A DNA stretch of 64,000 nucleotides from Gammaproteobacteria bacterium 53_120_T64 (GCA_002162815.1 MAAT01000075.1:1-64000), one strand, 5' to 3'; positions 49,575 to 64,000 are shown, counted from the stretch's first letter. Numbers and translations: made by a program. Notes: generated from the letters alone by a model not told the origin.

Positions 49575-50255
49575 CTATTCTGGCTTTTGTGCCGATAGTA
49601 CCAGGGCATCCACCTTCAAGGTTTTTCCCTCTAACTCAATATCCGCTTCTTCAAAGTATTCACTACCGGCCAGTCGCCAGCCTACGGCTGTCATTGCCGC
49701 TTCAATTTCTTCTTTTTCTCGCAATTTAAAACCGTGTTGGGTGAAACCTTGAGCTTTCATGGTATCTGAGGTGCGCATACCCAGAGCCACACGACCACCG
49801 GGCTTCAGCCAACGATCAAACAGGGTAAAGAGTTCAGTCATATCCTCAATAAAATAAATCACATTGACACCAAAAATACCGTCGACAGAGGCATCGTCAA
49901 TAGGCGCGTCAAAACAGTCTTCATTGTGTACCGTCATTTGACATTCGGCATATTCTGCTAGGTTGTCACGGACCTGCTGTGCCATATCCGCAGAGCGTTC
50001 GATGGCCTGATAATGGCCGTCACTTTCGAGGGTATAAGTAAGACTAAAGGACAACATGCCGTTGCCGGGGCCAATTTCTACAACATTCTGCCCCGCTTCG
50101 GGAATAAGACAATCTATGGTACACGCGGTGACAAGAGCGTTTGCTCTATTCATATCGGACGCTAATTCCTTACCGCGCTCACCCTCCGGATTGGAAAGTT
50201 GAGCAGCCATTGTGCGATCGCTGTCATTAACGCCTTTATCATCTGTACTCATCAT
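49575..50255 (-). CDS. Class I SAM-dependent methyltransferase
   Basis: 226 residues. SAM-binding motif I is VVEIGPGNGMLSF; the acidic end of strand 2 is QAIERSAD, and motif III-IV reads GIFGVNVIYFIEDM and LKPGGRVALGM. A small-molecule methyltransferase is likely, substrate unknown. Start ATGATG at 50255 with GGGATGG upstream; the second ATG is equally possible. It lies downstream of the sortase arm (157-bp gap) on the same strand, but nothing links it to that system. Confidence 0.88.
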   Translation of the reverse strand: MMSTDDKGVNDSDRTMAAQLSNPEGERGKELASDMNRANALVTACTIDCLIPEAGQNVVEIGPGNGMLSFSLTYTLESDGHYQAIERSADMAQQVRDNLAEYAECQMTVHNEDCFDAPIDDASVDGIFGVNVIYFIEDMTELFTLFDRWLKPGGRVALGMRTSDTMKAQGFTQHGFKLREKEEIEAAMTAVGWRLAGSEYFEEADIELEGKTLKVDALVLSAQKPE

Positions 50256-50412: not shown

Positions 50413-51030
50413 CTAGTACGAATCAATCGCCTGAGCATGGACAATAAAACGCTGCGCTGAGTTCGGCTCGAAACTATCAAATGGCCAGCATGTAACCAGA
50501 ACCAAGCTTCGCGTATTGTTATTGGCCTCTATCAAAGCATCTTCACTCACCACCTGCATACCGCTAACACGATAAACTGTGTGCTGCCTCTCCCAGTTTT
50601 GTAAAATTATGTTATCCCCCACCTGTAAATACTGCAAAAACCGAAAGTGGGTGTCTCTATGCCCAGAGATAATCACCACTCCCTTTGCTCCCGGTTGCGC
50701 ACTGCCCGAGGTGTGCCCCGGAGCAAAAGCCAGAGCTTGACCACTATCGCCGGCCAGCACCGTTAGCGAAACACCTTGCGTGGGAACGCGTAGACGAACA
50801 AGGGGCCAAGTATCCGCCCAAAACCACGGCTTACTGAGTTCAGTGTTTTCTAGGCTCTGCTGCCAAGCTCGAGCTATTAAATATTGGCCAAGTTCGGCCT
50901 TAACAAAAATATAAGCGCCCTTGATCCAGAAACTGATGGCGATGAGAACCAAGGCCATCGCAAGATGCTTTACGTAGCTACGGTATCGATCCCGCACCTT
51001 CGCTTGCCCACTTTCTTTAACTATTAGCAT
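50413..51030 (-). CDS. Sortase, marine proteobacterial type
   Basis: About 205 residues. One N-terminal membrane helix (HLAMALVLIAISFWIKGAYI) and a sortase catalytic domain with His124 (ISGHRDTHF), Cys181 (VLVTCWPF) and Arg194 (AQRFIVHA). This is the class found in Gram-negative dedicated sortase loci, where one sortase serves one substrate, encoded next door. ATG 51030 lies 8 bases past the substrate's stop; a TTG at 51045 that overlaps the stop is an alternative. Neither has a good ribosome site, so translational coupling is likely. Acts on the periplasmic face of the inner membrane. Confidence 0.95.
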   Translation of the reverse strand: MLIVKESGQAKVRDRYRSYVKHLAMALVLIAISFWIKGAYIFVKAELGQYLIARAWQQSLENTELSKPWFWADTWPLVRLRVPTQGVSLTVLAGDSGQALAFAPGHTSGSAQPGAKGVVIISGHRDTHFRFLQYLQVGDNIILQNWERQHTVYRVSGMQVVSEDALIEANNNTRSLVLVTCWPFDSFEPNSAQRFIVHAQAIDSY

Positions 51031-51038
51031 AGGTGAAG

Positions 51039-53114
51039 TCAGCAACTTTGCGAGCGCTGCCTAGAGAGCCAAAAAAAACATACCGCCAGCAGTAACAAGC
51101 CGTTGCCAAGCCCGATAAAATAACTCAAACCCGTCGCTGTGCGTGCCAAGGAAAATCGCCGGCCCTTGGCGGCATTATTTTTAATGATATGCTTTTCAAG
51201 CTCTTCGACTACGGGTCTGAGCGGCGTTTTGTCCACGGCCACCAGACTGGTAAATGGCGTCACTAGGTGGTGCTGCAAGGCAATATCAAGCACCTCACTG
51301 CGCAGCGCGAGTCGGGTATCGACATCACTCTGCAAGGCCCTTTCATCCAACAGTGAGGCCAATTTTTTTCGCGCCCATGCGATGTGAATACCACTACCCT
51401 CTGCAGCAACGTCCAGCGCTACCCGCTGTTGCCACACATCGCCCTGTCGCCGGCCTCCCAAGATAATAGACTCTGGCAAGTTATCGGCTTTGATGGCCAC
51501 GACAAGTGGCTCACTGGCATAGAGATCGGGTATAAACGCAGTGCTGATGTCAATATGATCAGCATTTATTTGCAATTCGATATCACTCATCACCGGCACA
51601 TCGATACGCTCAAACAACTCGGTTATTTTTCCCTCCACCTCACTGACTTTACCGATATTGACGAAACTCCCCCGCCCCATTTTTGCCGCCTTGCGCATAA
51701 AATAGCGGTTCGGAGCCGAACCAATGCCCACCGTAAACAATCGACTATTACCGAGCTGGCGGCTTATTGCCGACAATAATTCCGCCTCGTTGCTAATGGC
51801 GCCATCGGTGAGAAACAAAACCTGTCGCAAGCGCCCACTATTATCGTTATTAGCACAAGCACCACAAAGAGCGATGTCCAGGGCCTTACGCATTTCCGTG
51901 CCGCCACGGGCCTCAAGGTTCTGCACAAAACGTCGAGCCTTAGCGATATTGGTCGCGCTAGTCTGGCGTTCGGTGTCGAACAAGGACCAGGCCTCGGAGT
52001 TAAATTCAATAATATTAAAACGGTCCCGGTCGTCCAGCCTGCCGATGGCCCATAGCAACGCACGCTTGGCTTGGCGTAGCGATTCACCGCCCATCGAACC
52101 CGAAGTATCGATCACATACACGATGTCCCTGGGCTGGCGATACTGTTCAAGTTCAATCTGTGGCGGCATCACCTGTAGCAGGGCATATTCGTGACCAGAG
52201 AAGTCCTGGGTAAAAACATGAACCTGGGGCACGGCCAATTCACGTCCCTGCCATTCAATAACAAAATCTGCATTGGCGCGATGTGTTTGGGGATCAAGGC
52301 GCAATTGCCAATGACTGTCATCCAGACGATGTTTACTCACCGGGTGGTAGCGACTTTCAATCTCGTCGAGTTCAAAACCCGCCTGTAAATCCACCCAAAT
52401 TTCCGTGGCATTATGAGTCTCATCCAGCAGCGCCGTCGCCAGCTGAGACGCGGTTCCTGCATCCGCGCCGGCGAGTCGGTTCTCCGGGGCATAGCGCGGG
52501 GTAATACTCATCGGGTAGTGCAAACTAAAGCGCGAACCCCGGCGCATCACTTGCTGTTGGTATTCCAGCACCACTGTCAGCTCTTCGCCCGGGGCCACAT
52601 TGGCAATGTGAGTACGGAATATATTCGGCCGCTGTCGTTCGACGAGGGCGGCCTGTTGACCCGCCTGCCGGGCCTGTTGATAGATCTGTTGAGCCGTCTC
52701 GCGCTCCTGTATCTCGCCTTCGATAATGCGCTCGCCAATACGCATTTGCAGGTGGTCGACGGCGCTATCCGGGGGCAGCGGGAAGGTATAGACCGCTTCG
52801 GCCCAGGCATCGGAGGGATTACTAAAGGTCTGTGCCAGCCTCACCCGGGCAATCGGCCCAGTAATATGGATGTCCACCCGACTGCTTAGCTGCGGAGCCA
52901 TAACTTCGGCCCCGCCATCACTAAAGTGTAGAGCCAGCACAGCACTACCCAGCAGGCCTATTTCATCGTCATCACCACCGACCTCGGCACTGGCACTGGC
53001 ACTGGCACTGATACAAACGGAAAATAGCAGCAGCGCCAATAAAAAACATTGGTGTGTACTGACACGACGCTGTAAACGATGGCTTATTCCGCTACAAGCC
53101 AAACCAGCGTTCAT
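51039..53114 (-). CDS. Sortase substrate with VIT and vWA domains
   Basis: 691 residues, the dedicated target of the neighbouring sortase. Signal peptide (cut near ASASASAE), VIT domain (about 60-190, with QTFSNPSDAWAEAVYTFPLP), vWA domain with DTSGSMGG from Asp336, a beta-rich part, and a C-terminal sorting region: motif LARTATG (656-662), hydrophobic helix (YFIGLGNGLLLLAVCFFW) and a basic tail. The expected L-P-x-T-G/A has Ala in place of Pro. The start overlaps the pdsO stop (ATGA). VIT/vWA proteins suggest adhesion or matrix binding. Confidence 0.94.
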   Translation of the reverse strand: MNAGLACSGISHRLQRRVSTHQCFLLALLLFSVCISASASASAEVGGDDDEIGLLGSAVLALHFSDGGAEVMAPQLSSRVDIHITGPIARVRLAQTFSNPSDAWAEAVYTFPLPPDSAVDHLQMRIGERIIEGEIQERETAQQIYQQARQAGQQAALVERQRPNIFRTHIANVAPGEELTVVLEYQQQVMRRGSRFSLHYPMSITPRYAPENRLAGADAGTASQLATALLDETHNATEIWVDLQAGFELDEIESRYHPVSKHRLDDSHWQLRLDPQTHRANADFVIEWQGRELAVPQVHVFTQDFSGHEYALLQVMPPQIELEQYRQPRDIVYVIDTSGSMGGESLRQAKRALLWAIGRLDDRDRFNIIEFNSEAWSLFDTERQTSATNIAKARRFVQNLEARGGTEMRKALDIALCGACANNDNSGRLRQVLFLTDGAISNEAELLSAISRQLGNSRLFTVGIGSAPNRYFMRKAAKMGRGSFVNIGKVSEVEGKITELFERIDVPVMSDIELQINADHIDISTAFIPDLYASEPLVVAIKADNLPESIILGGRRQGDVWQQRVALDVAAEGSGIHIAWARKKLASLLDERALQSDVDTRLALRSEVLDIALQHHLVTPFTSLVAVDKTPLRPVVEELEKHIIKNNAAKGRRFSLARTATGLSYFIGLGNGLLLLAVCFFWLSRQRSQSC

Positions 53115-53761
53115 GGTCCCTCACCCTGAGAAAGCAAGACACCGTCTCCCACGCCAAGGCCCACCGCCACCCCCGGATGACCCTTCAAGACAACTTCAAT
53201 ACGGCGGTTGGCGATACGTCCATCCAAGGTCGTGTTATCGGCGATGGCCTGGCTTTCACCGTGCGCTTCAACCAACAGCAAACCCGCTTCCACCCCTAAC
53301 TCTTCAAAGCGCTCGGCAACTAAATTGGCGCGACGAAGGGATAACAGCATATTGCTTAACGCCGAACCCTCGCTGTCGGTATGTCCGTGGACCTGTAGCT
53401 CGGCCACAGAATCCCACTGGCGCGATTGTTCGATGATACTCAGCACATAGTCATCCAGCTGCGCTGGAGCAAAGTCACCACTGCGGGCGACGGGAATAAT
53501 AAAGCGCTTCTCATCCATCTTCAGCGCTGCTACCGCCTGTCGAACGGCTAAAACAGCCCCCTCCTCGACAGCCGTTTTAATAGCTATGGGGACTCTCTCA
53601 ACCTTGCTCGGAGCATCGGCATTCAATATCTGCGCGCCACGCTCTGTGGCTATTGGCACCGTTTGCTGACAGGCCTCGATGGACAAAATGCCAACCAGCA
53701 ACAACACGGACAAGCTCGCTCCCCTCAACCTCCTCATTCCACCCAGCTCATTGTTGTTCAT
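53111..53761 (-). CDS. pdsO: PdsO, OmpA-family lipoprotein of the sortase system
   Basis: 216 residues. Lipoprotein signal with lipobox LSIEAC (Cys31), a variable middle, and an OmpA-like peptidoglycan-binding domain (LQVHGHTDSEGSALSN, then LSLRRANLVAERFEELGV and GRIANRRIEVVLKG). The family of OmpA-like proteins restricted to proteobacterial sortase loci is named PdsO. It would sit in the outer membrane or at the wall and may be where the substrate is displayed (inference). Starts at ATG 53761; an ATG 8 codons on is possible. Confidence 0.9.
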   Translation of the reverse strand: MNNNELGGMRRLRGASLSVLLLVGILSIEACQQTVPIATERGAQILNADAPSKVERVPIAIKTAVEEGAVLAVRQAVAALKMDEKRFIIPVARSGDFAPAQLDDYVLSIIEQSRQWDSVAELQVHGHTDSEGSALSNMLLSLRRANLVAERFEELGVEAGLLLVEAHGESQAIADNTTLDGRIANRRIEVVLKGHPGVAVGLGVGDGVLLSQGEGP

Positions 53762-53942
53762 GGCGTTTATCCTCGTGCTGTAGATCCAGGGTTCTTTCGC
53801 TGGCTGCCAAGTCCTGCAATGGCTCTAGAGGCTGGCGATATAAATGCTGGCAGGGGTAGTCGCAGTGGTAGGGCACCAGTCGAGCCAATACCTGGGGCTG
53901 GCTATCGAGTAGATCATCGCTAAGCGCTACAAATTTTTTCAT
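53748..53942 (-). CDS. Small unrecognised protein at the head of the sortase arm
   Basis: 64 residues from ATG 53942, with AGGAG 10 nt upstream (an ATG at 53960 is in frame too). Starts MKKFVALSDDLLDSQPQVLA and contains YHCDYPCQHLY, a Cys-x3-Cys with flanking His, then a charged, Gln-rich tail. No signal peptide or membrane helix, so probably cytoplasmic. It is first in the operon and its end overlaps the pdsO start by 14 bp, which argues for a real, translated gene. I do not recognise a family. Confidence 0.65.
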   Translation of the reverse strand: MKKFVALSDDLLDSQPQVLARLVPYHCDYPCQHLYRQPLEPLQDLAASERTLDLQHEDKRHEQQ

Positions 53943-54097
53943 CACATCAACACTCCTCATCGGTTTACACCTATTGAAGCTAAAAAGACTGCAGGATTAA
54001 TGGTGAGAAAATGGAGATCTAATGGATTTATTACCGGCTAAACGGATCTCACGAAAACGAACAGGTATGCTGTGCTCACCCCCTAGAATGATGAGCA
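53943..54097. promoter_or_regulatory. Divergent control region of the two sortase-system arms
   Basis: About 155 bp must hold promoters for both arms. Inverted repeats are present: GTGAGA (54003-54008) with TCTCAC (54047-54052), and GAGATC (54014-54019) with GATCTC (54045-54050). They are candidate sites for PdsR, but no clear -35/-10 pair stands out. Confidence 0.35.
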
Positions 54098-54805
54098 GTG
54101 CACTTGAGCTATCAGATCGCCATTGTCGAGGATGACCCCGACCAGCGACATAACTACGCCATGGCCCTTGAAAAGCAAGGCTATACGGTCAGCGCTTATG
54201 CCGACAGGGGCAGTGCTCGCGAGGCAATGAGTTCGGCGATGCCCGACTTGGTCGTACTCGACATTATTCTCGGTCACGAAATCGACGCCGGGTTTCAGTT
54301 GTGCCGGGAATTGCTCGCCATTGACCCCAGCCTACCGGTATTATTTTTAACGGAGCGGGTCGATGAGATCGATAAAATATCGGGCCTGCGCCTCGGTGCC
54401 TGGGACTATCAACCCAAACCCGTTAGTCTGGCGTTTTTGGTTGAGCGCATCGCCTCCCTGCTGCGTTTAAGAGCCCTGCGAGACGAGCCGATTCCCGCCA
54501 CTCGCCCCGCCCAGGCAACCGGCCATTTATCGATAGACGCAGACGCCATGCAGGTTCACTGGCGCCAGCAATTACTGGAACTGACCATTACCGAGTTCCG
54601 CCTGATCGCGGCACTGGTGCGCCGGCCGGGCTACCCAGTGGCCTACGAGGCGTTAATGCAGGCCACCATTCAGCAGTATGTCACCCGCAATACCATCAAT
54701 ACCCATATGCGCAATATTCGCCGCAAATTCTGCGCCCTCGATAGCGCCTTTGCCTGTATTGGCAATGAATATGGCCACGGCTACCGCTGGCTTAAAGAAA
54801 GCTAG
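54098..54805 (+). CDS. pdsR: PdsR, OmpR-type response regulator of the sortase system
   Basis: 235 residues from GTG 54098. Receiver domain with IVEDDPDQ, phospho-acceptor Asp55 (LVVLDIILG), Thr (LFLTERVDE) and Lys (YQPKPVSL); winged-helix DNA-binding domain ending RRKFCALDSAFACIGNEYGHG, as in OmpR-family regulators. Followed 14 bp later by its kinase, and divergent from the sortase arm, so that arm is the natural target. A TTG two codons downstream is an alternative start. Confidence 0.93.
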   Translation: MHLSYQIAIVEDDPDQRHNYAMALEKQGYTVSAYADRGSAREAMSSAMPDLVVLDIILGHEIDAGFQLCRELLAIDPSLPVLFLTERVDEIDKISGLRLGAWDYQPKPVSLAFLVERIASLLRLRALRDEPIPATRPAQATGHLSIDADAMQVHWRQQLLELTITEFRLIAALVRRPGYPVAYEALMQATIQQYVTRNTINTHMRNIRRKFCALDSAFACIGNEYGHGYRWLKES

Positions 54806-54819
54806 GCGGCGCTCAAAGA

Positions 54820-56967
54820 ATGAAAATTGGCTCGCGTATTATCGGCCCCCGGCTGGGCAGTAAATTACTGCTCGCCGGTTGCGTGTTGCTACTGATTCCC
54901 TGGCTCGGCTTTCAATCCCTGCGCGCCATGCAACAATTTTTAACCGAGGGTCAAGCGGCAGCGCAACTGCTCACCGCCAGTGGTATCGCCGCGCTGCTGC
55001 ACGGGCGCAGGGAGCTGTTTGCTGAGCAATTTGATGACCATGCCGCCAGCACTCAGCTCGCCACGCTGCCCCTCTACCCACTGCCCGGACGCATCCTCCT
55101 CGATGGCTTTGCCGAGGACTGGCAGGGCCTAGAGCAACGCAGTAAAGACTATGGTGGAGCACCCGGGCCACAGTTTTCGCTGCTGCTCGGGGAAAACAAA
55201 CAGCGTCTTTACGGCCTGCTACAGGTCCGCGATACCTCACCCATTTATCGCCATCCCGCCTATTTAAGACTCGACCACAGCGACCATGTGCGGATCTATT
55301 TCAAGGACACCAACAATCAACAGGGACGCTTGCTGATGACCTTTGAGGGCAGCGGTAAAGTCACCGTTTATGCCGTGGATAGTGACTGGCGTATCGCGAC
55401 ACCGGGCAGCCCCGACTACCGCCTGCAGGGCTATGTCGATATCGATGCCAATGGCTACAGTATTGAATTTAGCCTGCCGTTGGCGATGCTCGGTGAGCAG
55501 CGCCAACTGGGGCTGGCCGTGGCCGATGTCGACGACCCCCACCAGCGCACCGTGGCTCATATTAGCTCGACCTTCCCCGATATTCATCGCGACCATTACA
55601 ATCGAGTGTCAATGCGCTCCGTCGCCACAGAGGCCATTCTTCAAGGCTTACAACAGCAAGATGCACAAATCTGGGTTCTTGATCGCGCCCTCAATGTTCG
55701 CGCCAGCACCGGTGGCCTCGGTGCTCAAGTGGAAGACTATCTCAACACCGAGCAACAGCGCGCAAAGCCACTTTGGCAAAGCCTCAGCGATGCTGTTTTG
55801 GGCCAACTGATTGGTCTCACCAGCCAGCCCTTGGAAGACTTTGACCCCCTGCAAACCCTCCGTCGCGACGATGCGCTATTACATGCGGCCATGACCGGCC
55901 TTGGCGGTACGCAGCAGCGCCCCTCGCTCGATGGCCGCCATCAAATTATTGCCGCCGCTCAGCCCATTCGCGACGGCGCCAGCATTATAGGTGTGGTGCT
56001 CATTGAACAAAGCACCGGTACAATTTTGAGCCTGCAGCGTCACTCCCTACAACATATCGCCCTGCTATCGTTACTGAGTTTAAGTGCTATCGTCATCGTC
56101 TTATTGTTGTTCTCCGCTCGCCTCACCTGGCGCATTACACGACTCGGCCGCGATACCGACAGGGCCAGCGATGAATGGGGGCGCATGCAGCACAGGCCCA
56201 ACATCCGAGGCACCCGAGCGGCTGACGAAATTGGCGATCTGAGCCGTAACATCGAACAGCTACTGGCCCGCTTAAATCGCTATCAGCAATTCCTCAGCAC
56301 CATCCCTCGCACCCTGCGCCATGAAATCAACAACCCCCTCAATACCGCAGCCACCTCACTCGAGCACCTGCAAGCACAGGGCGGCGACAGGGTTTATGTC
56401 GAGAGTGCACAGCGCGGTTTACAACGTATTAGTGCCATCGTCGACAATCTGGCCGAGGCCGCCAGTCTTGAAGATGCGCTGCATAGCGATGAGATATCAG
56501 TCCTCAGCATAAGCGCCCTGCTCAGCGTCTATATCAAGCATCTGCGCGAGCGCTGCCGACATGACATCGCGCTGAGCCTACCCGAAAATGATATTTGGAT
56601 AGAGGGCTCGGACATCCATATAGAACAATTACTCGACAAGCTACTCGACAACGCCTGCGACTTCGCCACGCCCGGCACGAGCATAGCCGTAGGCCTCAAC
56701 TGCACAAAAACCCATTGTTTGATTCGCATTAAAAATTATGGGCCAACGATCAACGAAGCAGAATTGGCGGTGCTGTTCCAACTTTTTCACAGCCGCCGAG
56801 ATCCAGAGCACAGCAATAGCACTGAGCAGCATATTGGCCTGGGGCTCTATATCGCACGACTGATTTGCGAGCGTCATGGCGGTGATTTATCCGTGGTAAA
56901 CCTACCAAGCGCCGATGGCGTAGAGTTTACCGCCACTCTGGCCTTGACCACTATTGATCAGGAGTAA
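54820..56967 (+). CDS. pdsS: PdsS, histidine kinase of the sortase system
   Basis: 715 residues, the usual length for this kinase family. Helix 1 (LLLAGCVLLLIPWLGF), a periplasmic sensor of about 380 residues whose first half (about 85-235; ILLDGFAEDWQG, DHVRIYFKD, YSIEFSLPLAML) looks like a CBM9/DOMON-type beta sandwich, helix 2 near 410-430, a HAMP-like linker, HisKA with His501 in LRHEINNPLNTAA, and an ATPase domain (LLDNACDFA, HIGLGLYIARLICERHGG). It may sense a sugar or wall-derived ligand. Transcribed with pdsR. Confidence 0.93.
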   Translation: MKIGSRIIGPRLGSKLLLAGCVLLLIPWLGFQSLRAMQQFLTEGQAAAQLLTASGIAALLHGRRELFAEQFDDHAASTQLATLPLYPLPGRILLDGFAEDWQGLEQRSKDYGGAPGPQFSLLLGENKQRLYGLLQVRDTSPIYRHPAYLRLDHSDHVRIYFKDTNNQQGRLLMTFEGSGKVTVYAVDSDWRIATPGSPDYRLQGYVDIDANGYSIEFSLPLAMLGEQRQLGLAVADVDDPHQRTVAHISSTFPDIHRDHYNRVSMRSVATEAILQGLQQQDAQIWVLDRALNVRASTGGLGAQVEDYLNTEQQRAKPLWQSLSDAVLGQLIGLTSQPLEDFDPLQTLRRDDALLHAAMTGLGGTQQRPSLDGRHQIIAAAQPIRDGASIIGVVLIEQSTGTILSLQRHSLQHIALLSLLSLSAIVIVLLLFSARLTWRITRLGRDTDRASDEWGRMQHRPNIRGTRAADEIGDLSRNIEQLLARLNRYQQFLSTIPRTLRHEINNPLNTAATSLEHLQAQGGDRVYVESAQRGLQRISAIVDNLAEAASLEDALHSDEISVLSISALLSVYIKHLRERCRHDIALSLPENDIWIEGSDIHIEQLLDKLLDNACDFATPGTSIAVGLNCTKTHCLIRIKNYGPTINEAELAVLFQLFHSRRDPEHSNSTEQHIGLGLYIARLICERHGGDLSVVNLPSADGVEFTATLALTTIDQE

Positions 56968-57088: not shown

Positions 57089-57688
57089 ATGATTTTACTG
57101 AACGCCTCTCATTTCGTCGGCAAGGGATTGCACCGCGAGTGTTATATCCACCCCGATAACGATCAACTCTGCGTCAAGGTCGTCGTCGCCGGGGATTTAT
57201 CGGAGAGTAAGCGCGAACAAAGCTACTATAAACGGCTGCAAAAAAGGGGCATTAGCTGGGACATACTGCCTCGTTTCCACGGCCAAATAGAAACCAATAT
57301 GGGCGCGGGCGCCGTCTTTGACCTGATCAGAGATGTCGATGGCGAGGTCTCAAAAACGCTGGAGTATTATCTTTCCTGTGAGCACTTAGAGAGCACAGAA
57401 AACCCTGGCATAAGCCAGGCTATAAGTATTTTCAAACAAGCGCTTTATCGACAGTCGATTATCACCATGACCCTGTCGCCAAAAAATATTATGTATAAAA
57501 AAACCGGCCCCCACGAGGGCCGTCTGATTCTTATTGATAATATTGGCAATTCAGACTTTATTCCTATTTGCAGTTATATTGATTCTTTGGCAAAAAAGAA
57601 AATCACTCGAAAGCTGCTGCGCTTTGAGAAAACCGTATTAAAAATGTGCGCTCACAATAAAGCACTACTTATTGAGCTGGGCACCTGA
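57089..57688 (+). CDS. YrbL-family protein (kinase-like)
   Basis: 199 residues, matching the PhoP-regulated YrbL family, which has a reduced kinase-like fold. GKGLHRECYIHPDNDQLCVK fits a P-loop and ATP lysine, and SPKNIMYKK with LILIDNIGNSDF fits the catalytic and metal-binding loops, though the usual Asp of the HRD motif is replaced by the weak TLSPKN. Cytoplasmic; substrate unknown. It follows pdsS by 121 bp on the same strand, but is known elsewhere without sortases. Confidence 0.85.
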   Translation: MILLNASHFVGKGLHRECYIHPDNDQLCVKVVVAGDLSESKREQSYYKRLQKRGISWDILPRFHGQIETNMGAGAVFDLIRDVDGEVSKTLEYYLSCEHLESTENPGISQAISIFKQALYRQSIITMTLSPKNIMYKKTGPHEGRLILIDNIGNSDFIPICSYIDSLAKKKITRKLLRFEKTVLKMCAHNKALLIELGT

Positions 57689-57983: not shown

Positions 57984-58068
57984 ATTTAAGCACTGTTACA
58001 GTGTCTTTCGCTGGCGCTCTTTTTAGCGCACTGGCGAAGCTAGTTTTATTTAATTAGGAATTAAAACC

Positions 58069-58799
58069 ATGGGCACACGTCTTACGGTTTCAGCCTTACT
58101 GCTTGTCTGCTTGCAAATGACCCGTCTCTCCAGTTACGCCGCGACATCAAGGCCGCTCGTGCTACCTTAAATACCCGCGAAAAATTTGAGACCGCAGCGG
58201 CACAAGCGCTCTACAATCCTGAGTTTGAGGGGGAAAACACTGAGGTCAACACTTTCACTGTAGGCATCAGCCAAACCCTCGACTGCTCTGCTAAGCGCTC
58301 AGCCCGCACCACTGTTTCGACAGTAGAGCGATTACCCATAGAGCCTCAGTACCACCTAGCACGCCAAGAACTGAGCATTGGCGCGCTCAACGCACTCGCC
58401 ATCTATCAACGCGGTATTGAACGCAAGGCCTTAGGCCTGGAGCGTGTGGCTTTAATGGCTAAATTTTCGGTGTTATCGACACAAGGTTTTGCCAGCGGGG
58501 ACATTGCCCGCGTTGAATTAAACCTCGCCACCCTGCTCGCAGCCGAAGCGAACATCGCCCACGCCAATGCTGGGCTCATTGCCGTCCGGCAAACACTGAA
58601 TAGGTTTTTGGCAAATGCAGACGGTACACCCTTGCCACAGCTAAACAGCCAACCACCCAGGCTAGCAACACGTCCCATGCCCCAGCCTCTGTAATTGGCT
58701 CTGCCCGATGTACAAATGGCCCAACGCCGTGTCGATGCTGCCAGTGCCCGGGTAAATTTACGCAAGCGCGAACAGGTCGCGATCCCAGCCGTGGCCTGA
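58069..58799 (+). pseudogene. Decayed CzcC/CusC-type outer membrane efflux protein
   Basis: A signal peptide (MGTRLTVSALLLVC) begins at ATG 58069, but the conserved part follows in another frame from about 58110: ANDPSLQLRRDIKAARA, then LYNPEFEGENTEVNTFTVGI and SQTLDCSAKRSAR, as in TolC-family metal efflux channels. A TAA at 58692-58694 interrupts the later frame, and the reading ends in TGA at 58797. The chain is about half the usual 420 residues: the second repeat is mostly missing. The lesions (frameshift or small deletion, stop, truncation) make a working channel impossible. Confidence 0.8.
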
Positions 58800-58825
58800 G
58801 CGCCGGTGTAGAAGATGGCTACCGC

Positions 58826-59347
58826 TTGTCTTGGTTGTCGTACCCATCACATTAGCGCCTATCTTTGTACTGCTGTATTTCGCCTTTGGCTCACGGGGTC
58901 AGGCCGCCTTGATGATGCTCAACGTACCCCTGGCCTTAATTGGCGGCATTATTGCCCCATGGCTATCGGGACAATATTTATCGGTGCCCGGCGCCAGCGG
59001 TTTTATTGCTTTATTTGGTGTCGCGGTACTCAACGGCGTAGTGATGCTGGGGGGCCGCGATGAATCAACGCATTGGCCAGCAAGAAAGTAGCTCTGGCAA
59101 TTTTGAAGGGGCCATTAAAGCCGGTGCTCATTCACGCTTGCGCCCGGTATTAATGACAGCATTAATTACCGCTCCGGGGCTGTTTCCACTGTTATTATCG
59201 AACGCTGTCGGCTCGGAAATTCAACGCCCACTGGCAGGCCTTGTCATCGGCGGGTTGATTTCCAGCACTTCATTAACCCTATTGGTCATTTCCGTTTTGG
59301 ACAGCGGATATTCTCGGCGCTGGCTGGAAAGTAAGTTCCGGCCATAA
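58826..59347 (+). pseudogene. Remnant of a CzcA/CusA-type heavy-metal RND pump (C-terminal end)
   Basis: Only the last about 170 of some 1040 residues remain. VVPITLAPIFVLLYFAFGS, LNVPLALIGGIIAPWLSG and GFIALFGVAVLNGVVML match the last transmembrane block; then the frame shifts within a run of six G (59049-59054) into MNQRIGQQE ... SRLRPVLMTALITAPGLFPL and EIQRPLAGLVIGG. The membrane-fusion gene (czcB) and the first four fifths of czcA are missing between 58799 and 58826, so one or more deletions joined the ends. Confidence 0.85.
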
Positions 59348-59449
59348 TCACCTATGAAAAAATATACGCCGAGTACATTAAAGGTCATGCCTTATTACGC
59401 TACCCCCCCCTGTAGAAAGACCTTTGCTATTCTCGGTAATGAATCTGGA

Positions 59450-60706
59450 CTAAGAAGGAGTGATCTCAGCCACTTCAACTCTATTGCGGCCCTTACTTTT
59501 AGCCGCATACACAGCTTCATCGGCACGATTTAAGACACCGATAAAGTCTTCACCATGGGCTAATTGCGCGAGGCCAAAACTGGCCGTGATGGCCAAACCC
59601 TGGACACAAGAATTTTCAAGGCTTAGGCGCACATTCTCGGCTTTATTGACACCCGCCTGTAGATCGCAACCATCGAGTAAAAAAACAAATTCCTCACCAC
59701 CAAAACGCGCAACGACGTCTTCATTTCTACTCTGTGCAACAAAAATTTTAGCCACATCCCGCAGCACATCATCGCCGATACTATGACCGTGCTGATCATT
59801 CACCGCTTTAAAGAAATCGATATCGATCATAATTAAACACAGTGGCTGCTGGTGGCGATGAGCATGGCTGATTCTTTTCGTGGCGACATCGATTAGAAAG
59901 TGTCGGTTATATAGGCCTGTCAACTGGTCACGCATGGCCAAATTTCGCAGGGCATCATTTTGCTGTTTAAGTGTAATGTGGGTGGCAATGCGCGCTTCAA
60001 CAATGGCCGGAGAAAAGGGCTTGGTAATGTAGTCGACGGCGCCAATACTCAGACCTAGCTCCTCCTCTTCCACCTGGTCTTTTCCGGTAACAAAAATAAC
60101 CGGGATATTCTCTGTAATTTCAGACTGTTTCAGGCGCTGGCAAACTTCGTAACCATCCATATCCGGCATTTGAATATCGAGCAAGATCAGGTCAGGACGA
60201 GGCTCCGCCTCGGCCAACTCTAAGCAACGCAGCCCCCCGGTGGCGACTTTTATTTGGTAGCTACTATTAAGTAGGCCCGCAAGAAGCTGGATGTTGGATG
60301 GCGCATCGTCAACAATCAATACTAGGGGCTTTGTTTCCATATTTTTCCCACCGTTGCGTTCGTCTACTCGAGCTTGTAGACGCAATCTTGAAGGCTCGCC
60401 CAGTTTTTCAACACTGACCACTGCCGCTTCAAAATCAAATTGGCCCAACTCCTCGCGCAATCTATCCAATAGTGAACCCTCGGGCTCTTGTCGGCAATAA
60501 GGTCGCAAACTGATCAGGTCGGCACTGTCGAGGAAATCTCCTCGCGCCAGCTTCGACCGCAACTGATCAATAAGAAAAACAAATTCCTCGAGCTCTCCCA
60601 ATACCGAATGATGTTGTAAAATCGAGGAAACACCCTTCCCCAAGACCTGGAGTTCGCTGTATTCCGCCGGGTAATCTAAGGCTAAAACCCCAATTATTGT
60701 GTCCAT
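59450..60706 (-). CDS. Response regulator-diguanylate cyclase (REC-GGDEF)
   Basis: 418 residues. A receiver domain starts at Met123 (METKPLVLIVDDAPSN; phospho-Asp in LILLDIQMPDMDG; Lys in YITKPF), then GGDEF with the active FGGEEF and an RxxD inhibitory site (RNED) five residues before it. So it makes cyclic-di-GMP when phosphorylated, probably by the hybrid kinase 23 bp upstream. The first 122 residues are unusual: positions 41-103 resemble the end of that kinase. Translation could also begin at Met123; ATG 60706 is used since the long frame starts right behind the kinase stop. Confidence 0.9.
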   Translation of the reverse strand: MDTIIGVLALDYPAEYSELQVLGKGVSSILQHHSVLGELEEFVFLIDQLRSKLARGDFLDSADLISLRPYCRQEPEGSLLDRLREELGQFDFEAAVVSVEKLGEPSRLRLQARVDERNGGKNMETKPLVLIVDDAPSNIQLLAGLLNSSYQIKVATGGLRCLELAEAEPRPDLILLDIQMPDMDGYEVCQRLKQSEITENIPVIFVTGKDQVEEEELGLSIGAVDYITKPFSPAIVEARIATHITLKQQNDALRNLAMRDQLTGLYNRHFLIDVATKRISHAHRHQQPLCLIMIDIDFFKAVNDQHGHSIGDDVLRDVAKIFVAQSRNEDVVARFGGEEFVFLLDGCDLQAGVNKAENVRLSLENSCVQGLAITASFGLAQLAHGEDFIGVLNRADEAVYAAKSKGRNRVEVAEITPS

Positions 60707-60729
60707 ACTGCGTTTACAACTCCCTGTAT

Positions 60730-63700
60730 TTAGGTTTTAACATCCCCGACAAGCAATACTTCTAACTCATTAACAGAGGCCACTGCGCTCGACATATCAA
60801 ACTGATTCAGCTGTGCGCTGAGCTTTTCCAGGGCCTGTTTTTCCTGACCCTGTTGACAATGGGGCTTGAAAAAATGGATATCTGCCAACTCCACATAAGC
60901 ACCCTGCTCTAGCTTAGTACGCAGTTGCCTCATCAACACCACCAACGCCTCCCCCTTCACGGTTGGGGGTCGCGACAAGCCACCATCTGAAGATGCCTGC
61001 TCCTGAGCCTGTAAATACTCATCTAAGCATAGATACAATTGTTGATATTGCTCAAAAAAATTGGCCCATTGACCCTGTATCACAGCGCCCGCACCCGACA
61101 GAGCCGCCACCTCAAAAGTGACGGACAAAGCCTGTAGACGCGTAGCACTCATATTCCCGGCGATGCCTTTAATGGTATGAATCAGACTCGCTATGCGAGG
61201 CCAGTCTTCAGCGGCCACCGCTTCGCCAAGTAGCTCCATGTCCCCCGGCACATCGGAGACAAATTGTTTCACTAGGGTTAACAACAGCGTCTGATTACCC
61301 CTGACCCGCTTGAGTAGCCCCTCCTGATCCCATATCGGCTGTTGCTCGCGGCTATCATCTGCTAAGCCTTGGCCACTATCGGCTACAGCCACAAGTTGAG
61401 CCGCGGCTGGTGGCGCTTTATCGGCTGGGGGGGTATCCGTCGACAGTTTATTGGCTCGAGGCTGATCCTCTACAGTCTCTTCTCGCGACCGCTCACCGAC
61501 GCTGGATCGAGACAAATGACGCTGTAGGCTAGCCTCCAGCAGGTCAGGGTCTATCGGCTTGGCAATGTAATCATTCATTCCTGCACGCAAGCACTTGGCC
61601 CTGTCCCCGGCCATCGCATTGGCCGTCATGGCAATAATATTGATATCGGTGTAGCGCTCACCGGCCCCACCATCACGAATTTCGGCGGTAGTTTCATAGC
61701 CATCGAGCACCGGCATCTGGCAATCCATTAATATCAGTTGATAGGGCTTCTCTTCAGAGGCCTGCTGCAGCATCTCTAGCGCTACCGCGCCATTGTCAGC
61801 AATATCGGCGAAGTAACCCATATCTTCCAATATGCCGATGGCGACCTGTTGATTGATAAGGTTATCTTCCACCAGCAGTAAGCCCGACTCACCACACTGA
61901 AGCCCACCATTCGCACTTGGCGGCGACGGCTCATGACTCAGGCTCTGCAGGTAGTTGTGCGTCACTAGGGGCTTGGCAGCCAGTAGCGCCTCACCACCAC
62001 CCAGTACCACGGCCAGTGCGTCGAATAGATCCGAGGTCGTGGTTGGTTTCGGGAAGTAAGCCGCAAAGCCCAAGTTGGCAAAAAACTGGGCATCCCCGGG
62101 CTCACTCATCGAGGTCATCATCACCAGCTGGGTGGCCTTAAAGCGGGCATCGGCGCGAATCGCCCGCCCCAGGGCGGCTCCGTCCATCTCCGGCATTTGC
62201 ATATCGACAATAGCCACCGGAAAGGGCTCTGCCACCTGTTCATCAAGAATACGGAGTGCACTCGCCGCGCTATCGGCCTCGGTGACATAGGCACCCCAGA
62301 GACTGAGCTGTTGCTCGAGTACTTCGCGGTTCGTTTCATTATCGTCAATAATAAGAATTCGCACCCCGTGCAGATCGACTGTCGGCCTCACTAACGCCGC
62401 CTGATCACTCACCCCCAGCCGCAGGGTAAAGGCAAAGCAACTACCCTTGCCAAACTCACTGGTGACACTAATCTCGCCGTTCATTAATTCACACAGTCTT
62501 TTGACAATGGATAAACCCAAACCCGTACCGCCAAATTTCCGCGTGGTCGACGAGTCAACCTGTGAAAAAGAATCAAATAATTGATGGATTCGCTCCGCTG
62601 CAATCCCCATCCCCGTGTCGGAAACCGAGGCCGACAGCAGCATCTCGCCTTCATCGCCCTCGTGCAGGGCGGCACGAATAACGATCTCGCCTTCGGCGGT
62701 GAATTTCAGCGCATTGCCCACCAGGTTGGTAAAGAGTTGCCGTACCCGCGTCGGGTCGCCCTTAACCCGGGAGTACTTGATCTGAGCCAGGTCGAGCACT
62801 ATCTCTAGGCCCTTAGCCTGAGCCTGTAAAGCCATGCTTTCCGCCAGTTCGCCCAGCAGCTGACGCAAGTCGAAATCAATCGATTCCATCTCCAGCTTGC
62901 CCGCTTCAATCTTGGAAAAATCCAGAATGTCGTTGATCAGCGTCAGCAGGGCCTCGCCACTGGAGCGCGCCAGACGCACCTGGTGGCGCTGCTTACTATT
63001 TAATTCGGAGCTCGATAACAAATTGAGCATGCCCAACACGCCATTCATCGGGGTGCGAATTTCATGGCTCATATTCGCCAAAAAGTCACCCTTGGCGCGG
63101 GTCGCCTCCACCGCCTCGTTTTTGGCGCGGGTCAATTCAGCGGCCACCAAGGTCTCCGCTGTAATATCGCCAAAGCTCCACACCTGCCCCACCGAATTAT
63201 TGGGCAACACCAGCTCTCGTGAGTTGTATTCAAAAATACGACCATCCTTAAAATGAATAGAGCCCGCTGTAAATAGGCCACCAGTGTGCTGTAGCCCCTC
63301 GACGATACGAGTAAAGGCCTCAGCATCCAGTAGGTCATCGGCTATATTGCTGAGCAATGACTTGACGTCACCAAAAACCACATTCTCGCTAGATAGATCA
63401 AACATGTCGAGTAGGCGCTGGTTGTAGTGCAAAGCCTTGTGGTGTTCATTAATAACCACAATACCTTTATCGGTAGCTTCAAGTGTCGCCTCGACAATGG
63501 CTAAGGAGTTATCACTATTGAACTCCGCCAGCTTGCGCGCCGTGATGTCTGTGCGAATGGCAATATAGCTTTTTGTCTTACCCCCACTATCCACAAAGGG
63601 CATGATGGTGCTATCCAGCCAATACAAATCCCCGCTTTTCGTCCTGTTACAAATCTCGTCGCGCCACACCTCACCCCTATCCAGCGTCGCATAAAGGTCC

Positions 63701-64000
63701 TCAAAGAAAGCCGCAGGGTGGTGACCGGAGTTGAGAAGACGATGGTTTTGACCGATTAACTCCGCTTCGCTATAACCGCTGATAGCGGTAAACTTTTCGT
63801 TAACAAAAGTAATCGTCCCCGCTGGGTCGGTGATAGCAACAATGGAGTGCTGGTCAAGGGCGAAGCGCTGCTCCTCAAGCTCCGTCAGGGTTTGCTGAAT
63901 TGCAAGCGCGCTAGCTTTTAATTCATTTTCGAAGGCCTGACGCGCCACAATCATAAAATTAAAGGCCTTCGCCAACTGGCCAATTTCATCGTTGGAGCTC
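60730..64000 (-). CDS. Hybrid sensor histidine kinase, 5' end beyond the window
   Basis: The frame is open to the window edge. From the N-side: end of a HAMP domain ([12 protein letters not shown]), a PAS domain ([20 protein letters not shown]), a second PAS, HisKA ([20 protein letters not shown]), HATPase ([16 protein letters not shown]), two receiver domains ([25 protein letters not shown]), an Hpt domain ([17 protein letters not shown]) and a C-terminal tail of about 70 residues. A BarA-like phosphorelay; the missing front should hold membrane helices and a sensor. The next gene, 23 bp on, is a REC-GGDEF protein, its probable output. Confidence 0.93.
   Translation of the reverse strand, partial: [1089 protein letters not shown]

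Follow-up and report, generated by a model that had tools for sequence, protein, structure and literature searches.

Introduction

To what does a sortase attach its substrate in a Gram-negative envelope, and which signal sets such a system in motion? The question is raised by positions 50,413-56,967 of a 64,000-nucleotide (nt) stretch of DNA from Gammaproteobacteria bacterium 53_120_T64 (GCA_002162815.1 MAAT01000075.1:1-64000; this whole stretch is referred to here as the window), whose genome assembly comprises 2.95 Mb in 76 contigs and is 93.6% complete. An earlier reading of the DNA, referred to here as the original prediction, identified these genes as a proteobacterial dedicated sortase (Pds) locus and called both the acceptor and the signal unsettled; the identification stands, with sortase and target scoring over curated cut-offs, and a 2023 paper likewise gives the role of class GN sortases as unknown (PMC10581121). 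We find that the locus is a variant form of the known system: one of its genes had been overlooked, its regulator belongs to a distinct branch, and an operator can be predicted. Taken as a whole, we give somewhat better than even chances to reading it as a type II Pds variant in which the regulator and kinase (PdsR and PdsS, together PdsRS) would switch the minus-strand arm, and in which the sortase would fix a VIT/vWA protein, most likely to the meso-diaminopimelate (meso-DAP) of peptidoglycan.

Organization of the locus

The five open reading frames (ORFs) originally named are intact, adjacent and correctly placed, and they do form two divergent arms, but the description of the locus as complete missed a sixth ORF at 53748-53942 (-), which is included in the following list of genes.

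50413-51045, minus strand: class GN sortase of 210 aa with an N-terminal membrane segment (TIGR03784)
51039-53114, minus strand: sortase target of 691 aa, with signal peptide, VIT domain, vWA domain and C-terminal sorting signal (TIGR03788; Pfam VIT and VWA)
53111-53761, minus strand: OmpA-like lipoprotein in the place of PdsO (Pfam OmpA), with a lipobox-like IEAC
53748-53942, minus strand: unannotated 64-aa protein, first gene of the minus arm, its ORF overlapping the lipoprotein start by 14 nt
54098-54805, plus strand: PdsR-like response regulator of type II (WDYQPKP), assigned from its best family, TIGR03787, and from a tree
54820-56967, plus strand: PdsS-like sensor kinase of type II (H-box RHEINNPLN), with two membrane segments and a periplasmic part of ~375 aa (Pfam HisKA and HATPase_c)

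Transcription of the minus arm would run from the small protein through the OmpA-like lipoprotein (53761-53111) and the VIT/vWA protein (53114-51039) to the sortase (51045-50413). The overlapping starts and stops noted in the original prediction are present in this arm, by 7 nt between sortase and substrate and by 4 nt (ATGA) between substrate and lipoprotein, but not in the plus arm, where there is a 14-nt gap. The regulator-kinase pair is divergent from the substrate-sortase pair in 53 of the 54 relatives' loci where each of the four core genes could be located, and the lone exception, L087, looks like a case of over-extended ORF starts; given these counts, comparison of gene order indicates that the divergent layout is no accident. 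Searches with TIGR03784 and Pfam Sortase found one sortase in the genome, adjoined by the one TIGR03788 target that scores over cut-off. No relatives were found among viral contigs.

Five curated models had been proposed as a check on the locus, and two of them are passed, with the sortase scoring 204.2 bits against TIGR03784 (cut-off 158.25) and the target 677.4 bits against TIGR03788 (cut-off 551.65), but TIGR03787, TIGR03785 and TIGR03789 give scores below cut-off. The catalytic His129, Cys186 and Arg199 of the sortase are invariant among 23 aligned sequences, and the metal site of the target's vWA domain (DxSxS...T...D) is intact, with conserved metal-site residues. Compared with the proteobacterial dedicated sortase system as curated (NCBIfam TIGR03784/03785/03787/03788/03789; 'class GN sortase'), the locus shares the over-cut-off sortase and VIT/vWA target, the divergent regulator-kinase arm and an OmpA-like gene adjoining the target; it differs in that its regulator and kinase score below cut-off and branch separately, its OmpA-like gene is not PdsO, an extra small gene is present, and the sorting motif has LA instead of LP.

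A separate branch of regulators and kinases

TIGR03787 and TIGR03785 remain the best families for the regulator and kinase, but neither gene reaches the cut-off that the original assignment anticipated: the regulator scores 236.5 bits against a required 335.7 (99 short) and the kinase 438 against 612 (174 short), while their counterparts in a control locus, L057, pass with 390 and 753. The lipoprotein had similarly been taken for PdsO, an assignment we do not retain, as it scores 33.8 bits against TIGR03789 (cut-off 152.2), matches in the OmpA domain only and is better described by generic OmpA lipoprotein models; PdsO positive controls from L057 and L065 pass. Because the L057 regulator and kinase, and PdsO from L057 and L065, are recognized by these models, the three failures are real and do not reflect a fault in the search. 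A true PdsO elsewhere in the genome was also considered and rejected, as there is no over-cut-off match to TIGR03789.

The regulator and kinase fall below the cut-offs because both belong to a separate, well-supported branch, designated type II. Type I is defined by DDYLxKD together with a HELRTPL-type H-box, and type II by WDYxxKP together with an HExxNPLN-type H-box; by these motifs 81 regulator genes divide into 39 of type I, 28 of type II (the window's included) and 14 others. A maximum-likelihood tree built on 65 regulators separates types I and II by a branch with 100/99 support; a small number of divergent unclassified rows fall on the side of type II, and their placement is unsure given the long end branches of L087, L142 and L103. 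Judging from the relatives, which begin M-S-Y-x-I-A-I-V-E-D-D, the true start of pdsR is probably the TTG at 54104. The atypical H-box and G1 box of PdsS led us to consider a dead kinase, which was rejected: the phospho-acceptor His, the N-box and GxGL are intact, and the G1 Asp is variable throughout the family.

The curated regulator, kinase and PdsO models miss this whole branch, such that surveys relying on them will under-count these systems. The type II control module is retained where the sortase is absent, and one relative handles its VIT/vWA protein with a PEP-CTERM/exosortase pair instead. We tentatively suggest, as a proposal that falls short of being probable, that the locus represents a second, unrecognized branch of control, consisting of type II PdsRS and, in most loci, a small cytoplasmic switch protein; such a module would be separable from the sorting chemistry, and what it controls would be the delivery of a VIT/vWA wall protein, not 'sortase' in itself.

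The intergenic region and control of the minus arm

Three elements are predicted between the two arms.

53973-53978, minus strand: -10 element of the minus-arm promoter, TTCAAT, recognized as TTNAAT at a fixed distance in relatives
53989-54029, plus strand: predicted PdsR binding array of CTGC, ATGG, ATGG and ATGG, starting at 53989, 54000, 54011 and 54022 with exact 11-bp spacing (conserved footprint)
54066-54071, plus strand: probable -10 of the plus-arm (pdsR) promoter, TATGCT, suggested by the conservation, across most relatives, of a sequence resembling AGGTATGCT

Upstream of type II pdsR genes, pairs of TGG spaced by 11 occur 37 times in the forward orientation and never in reverse, and each of the other spacings from 7 to 16 occurs no more than three times. 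When a repeat profile derived from 16 regions is applied to regions outside that set, its forward-strand scores exceed its reverse-strand scores (Wilcoxon p = 4e-8). The array is the top-scoring site in the window (36.8, the next being 14.1) and the only perfect match in the genome. A wider PdsR regulon was considered; all six sites with one mismatch lie inside ORFs, and no further target is claimed.

The putative minus-arm -10 keeps a fixed distance from the repeats. Of 14 relatives, 13 have TTNAAT at precisely 37 bp from the TCCA half-site and the other has it at 36 bp, while the spacing between hexamer and start codon ranges between 30 and 77. Counting ATGG units alone, the repeats stop ~20 bp short of the -10; with the CTGC unit included, the gap is ~10 bp. 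No TTGACA-like -35 was seen before this -10. By its sequence, then, the combination of repeats and a fixed -10 facing the minus arm is the layout of a promoter activated by a regulator of the OmpR/PhoB family, of which PhoB binds tandem direct repeats (PMC3348028). The resemblance to PhoB/OmpR-type activated promoters lies in the tandem one-turn direct repeats before a -10 without a clear -35; the half-site here, RTGGA, is different, and PdsR is the presumed binder. Because the conserved 11-bp array and fixed-distance -10 show this PhoB-type layout, the sequence supports the proposal that PdsR drives the minus arm, and the locus supplies a defined predicted operator as a handle on PdsR control.

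The array could instead serve mainly for autoregulation of pdsR, or for another OmpR-family regulator, the minus arm being constitutive or controlled elsewhere. Such an arrangement would be compatible with the location of the array between both arms, with the fact that a TATGCT-like -10 for pdsR is conserved too, and with the presence of repeats upstream of pdsR in type I loci, where they are weaker and spaced 10-11 bp. However, the fixed 37-bp distance concerns the -10 that faces the minus arm, sortase-less genomes (L206, L207, L212) keep array-like sequence upstream of the small gene, and the genome has no second perfect site; we regard this explanation as distinctly unlikely, and favor activation of the minus arm by PdsR.

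The first gene of the minus arm

The overlooked ORF encodes a protein with the motif MKxFVxISDDxL...P...LVPYxxDYPC, in which no signal peptide or membrane segment is seen by eye. Among six genus-level copies the differences by codon position number 209/114/380, and pairwise ratios of nonsynonymous to synonymous substitution (dN/dS) are mostly 0.1-0.3, reaching 0.4; these values show that it is a real protein gene under purifying selection. Across 14 copies M1, F4, D9, P16, L22, V23 and P24 are invariant, and C31 nearly so. A translated leader that couples the operon, with no functional protein product, might be expected to look similar in some respects, as the ORF is short, overlaps the next start in genus-level loci and belongs to no known family. 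We consider this very improbable in view of the strong purifying selection on its amino acids and the conservation of the motif across families, including loci in which the gene is not beside the lipoprotein.

In the window's family the gene is present in 13 of 14 genomes with a sortase and in one of 98 without (G096), and in a class-wide sample 13 of 369 genomes carry it, with 12 of those copies adjoining Pds genes. Of the 28 type II loci 24 contain it, as against none of the remaining 53, counts in which related genomes are not independent. Strict confinement to the type II regulator was nonetheless rejected on account of three genomes discussed below. No Pfam, NCBIfam or PHROGs family was matched and no solved relative was found, and an AlphaFold2 model built from three rows has a mean predicted local distance difference test (pLDDT) score of 56 and is not usable; the small gene is an addition to the system that current family libraries do not name.

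We also observe modules of regulator, kinase and small gene without an adjoining sortase in L203, L205, L206 and L207. In the genomes G168, G305 and G367 there is no TIGR03784 match, and no strong TIGR03788 match, anywhere in the genome.

The sensor domain of PdsS

The periplasmic part of PdsS was modelled by AlphaFold2 from 25 sequences (the window and related loci), with a mean pLDDT of 81.5 and a predicted template modelling (pTM) score of 0.67. The model has two predicted domains.

55060-55623, plus strand: CBM9-like beta-sandwich, residues ~81-268
55657-56019, plus strand: PAS/Cache-like domain, residues ~280-400

Residues 51-238 of the model resemble CBM9, aligning with 7nwn over 162 residues (Z 16.9, root-mean-square deviation (rmsd) 2.6 A) and with 1i82 by Foldseek (E 1.3e-6), and the remainder resembles extracytoplasmic PAS/Cache sensors such as WalK (4ywz; Z 12.5, rmsd 3.2, 137 aligned). 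At a Pfam threshold of E <= 0.1, CBM9_1 is matched in 10 and Cache_WalK in nine of the 25 relatives, the best matches being near 1e-4. The same beta-sandwich fold is found in a haem-binding enzyme subunit (2ivf), and the fold therefore does not fix the PdsS ligand. The predicted fold does narrow the candidate signals, and from the model a glycan is our leading guess for the cue.

Sorting signal, acceptor and proposed mechanism

The target ends in a putative sorting signal.

51132-51149, minus strand: sorting motif LARTAT, ahead of a membrane helix and a tail that contains Arg (RQR; C-terminal comparison)

A motif of the form (L/F/M/Y)-(P/A)-x-T-A-T is recognized in 112 of 121 targets, with some variation at every position, and that of the window is of the xTA rather than the xTG type. 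The best match of the sortase among solved structures is 2ln7, the class D sortase of B. anthracis (PMC4498605), an enzyme that cuts LPNTA between Thr and Ala, for which the meso-diaminopimelic acid (m-Dpm) of peptidoglycan serves as the nucleophile and whose operon also contains genes for its substrate and for a two-component system dedicated to it (PMC3297441). The Pds locus thus resembles the basI-srtC-sctR-sctS locus of B. anthracis in having a dedicated substrate, sortase and two-component system together, in its xTA motif and in its best solved match; in contrast, the Bacillus system is Gram-positive, forms a single operon, has a role in sporulation and has a substrate that is not a VIT/vWA protein, and the window sortase does not pass the class D models. 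The leading hypothesis for the acceptor, by analogy, is the meso-DAP of peptidoglycan, because the nearest solved sortase is this class D enzyme and meso-DAP is also present in Gram-negative peptidoglycan; the sorting motif and the nearest enzyme together name one acceptor candidate. The OmpA-like lipoprotein has the peptidoglycan-binding Asp and Arg (D...R motif), residues that in OmpA domains bind DAP.

A mechanism can be proposed from these elements. PdsS, by way of its CBM9-like and Cache sensor in the periplasm, would detect a soluble or glycan-like envelope cue and phosphorylate PdsR, which would bind the 11-bp direct repeats at 53989-54029, standing in for a -35, and activate the minus-arm promoter. 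The four genes of the activated arm, from that of the small protein to that of the sortase, would be expressed. The VIT/vWA protein would be exported and kept at the inner membrane by its C-terminal helix, upon which the sortase would cleave LART-AT between Thr and Ala and attach the C-terminus so created; the most likely acceptor is the meso-diaminopimelate of lipid II or peptidoglycan, through its side-chain amine. A metal-binding vWA protein would thereby become anchored in the periplasmic wall, to which the neighboring lipoprotein would tether the outer membrane. As for the small cytoplasmic protein, it is presumably an accessory of the circuit and, as a guess, most likely a feedback or connector protein of PdsRS.

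Several observations weigh against this reading. The sortase scores below the class D models (76 of 165 bits for NF033746 and 82 of 140 bits for NF058671), which bears on the meso-DAP step taken by analogy, and a full-text literature search found no experimental study of any class GN sortase. The window's own PdsS has no Pfam CBM9_1 match, and the two Trp residues that clamp sugar in CBM9 seem, by eye, not to be kept in it. In G195, G319 and G478 the small gene accompanies a type I regulator, elsewhere in the genome or beside the target; two of these three matches are weak (E about 3e-4) but lie directly upstream of the target. Finally, homologues of the VIT/vWA protein carry interchangeable tails, having a sortase motif, GlyGly-CTERM or PEP-CTERM (PMC3237569; L265, L266, L268), and rhombosortase conjugates VesB to a moiety containing glycerophosphoethanolamine (PMC6219818), so that a lipid acceptor is conceivable.

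The interchangeable tails and the rhombosortase product suggest a different acceptor: like rhombosortase, as it seems, the sortase might conjugate its target to a phosphoethanolamine lipid, leaving the protein surface-bound by a lipid anchor. Homologous VIT/vWA proteins are indeed handled elsewhere by rhombosortase or exosortase (PMC3237569), and a further example is provided by G096, a genome without a sortase, in which a PEP-CTERM VIT/vWA protein is followed by exosortase K (L270:5881-8692; 66 bits, cut-off 55). This genome keeps the regulator, kinase, small gene and lipoprotein, without a sortase, on another contig (L212), and shares its genus code with two sortase-bearing genomes; judged by gene content, the sorting enzyme has apparently been exchanged. 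The exosortase K/PEP-CTERM and rhombosortase/GlyGly-CTERM systems are alike in that a VIT/vWA protein of the same family is processed by a C-terminal sorting enzyme, but those enzymes are unrelated, membrane-embedded and directed at other motifs. Homologous substrates of different enzymes need not share an acceptor, and the nearest solved sortase uses m-Dpm; a lipid acceptor therefore seems to us unlikely, though it deserves consideration beside meso-DAP, which we prefer.

It could also be supposed that the sortase is mainly a protease or housekeeping releaser, cutting off the tail and freeing the VIT/vWA protein in the periplasm, to be held there by the lipoprotein or by metal binding. One enzyme with one substrate needs no specialized acceptor, and no acceptor gene is evident at the locus. 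Against this, the catalytic His, Cys and Arg and their surrounding residues are invariant, as in transpeptidases, and hydrolysis alone is slow in the sortases that have been studied, which makes simple release quite improbable; attachment to meso-DAP remains the reading we prefer.

An extra Cys pair (LCxxC) is present in the vWA domain of the window's family, at target residues ~413-424 (51800-51900, minus strand), and is absent from the targets of other families.

Distribution of class GN sortases

Sortases over the TIGR03784 cut-off extend far outside the marine proteobacteria, occurring in Bradyrhizobium isolates as well as records titled Nitrospira, Acidobacteria, Myxococcota, Binatia and Desulfobulbaceae; many of these broad-taxon carriers are metagenome-assembled genomes, among which single cases could be mis-binned, and the Bradyrhizobium genomes are from isolates. 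The loci concerned in Bradyrhizobium and in the records titled Nitrospira, Acidobacteria, Binatia and Myxococcota include L101, L109, L112, L119, L122, L124 and L150. This breadth runs counter to the restriction of class GN sortases to halotolerant proteobacteria published in 2023 (PMC10581121). These enzymes are widespread, yet their role is described in print as unknown.

Neighboring genes

YrbL (57089-57688) and a methyltransferase (49575-50255) were considered as parts of the Pds locus and rejected, as they are present only in genus-level loci. YrbL, a PhoP regulatory network protein on the plus strand, lies directly after pdsS, a position it keeps only in genus-level loci; it scores 200 of 227 bits against its NCBIfam model and is over the Pfam cut-off. 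Further downstream, at 58045-59350 (+), are the remains of a resistance-nodulation-division (RND) efflux operon, a decayed locus with two short ORFs in different frames and interrupted sequence before them; their matches to AcrB/AcrD/AcrF are confined to the C-terminal end (profile positions 866-938 and 949-1016). The region beside the Pds locus at 59450-63975 (-) encodes a 1081-aa hybrid histidine kinase with Hpt and a 418-aa response regulator-GGDEF protein, and some genus-level relatives have regulator-like genes on this same side of the locus.

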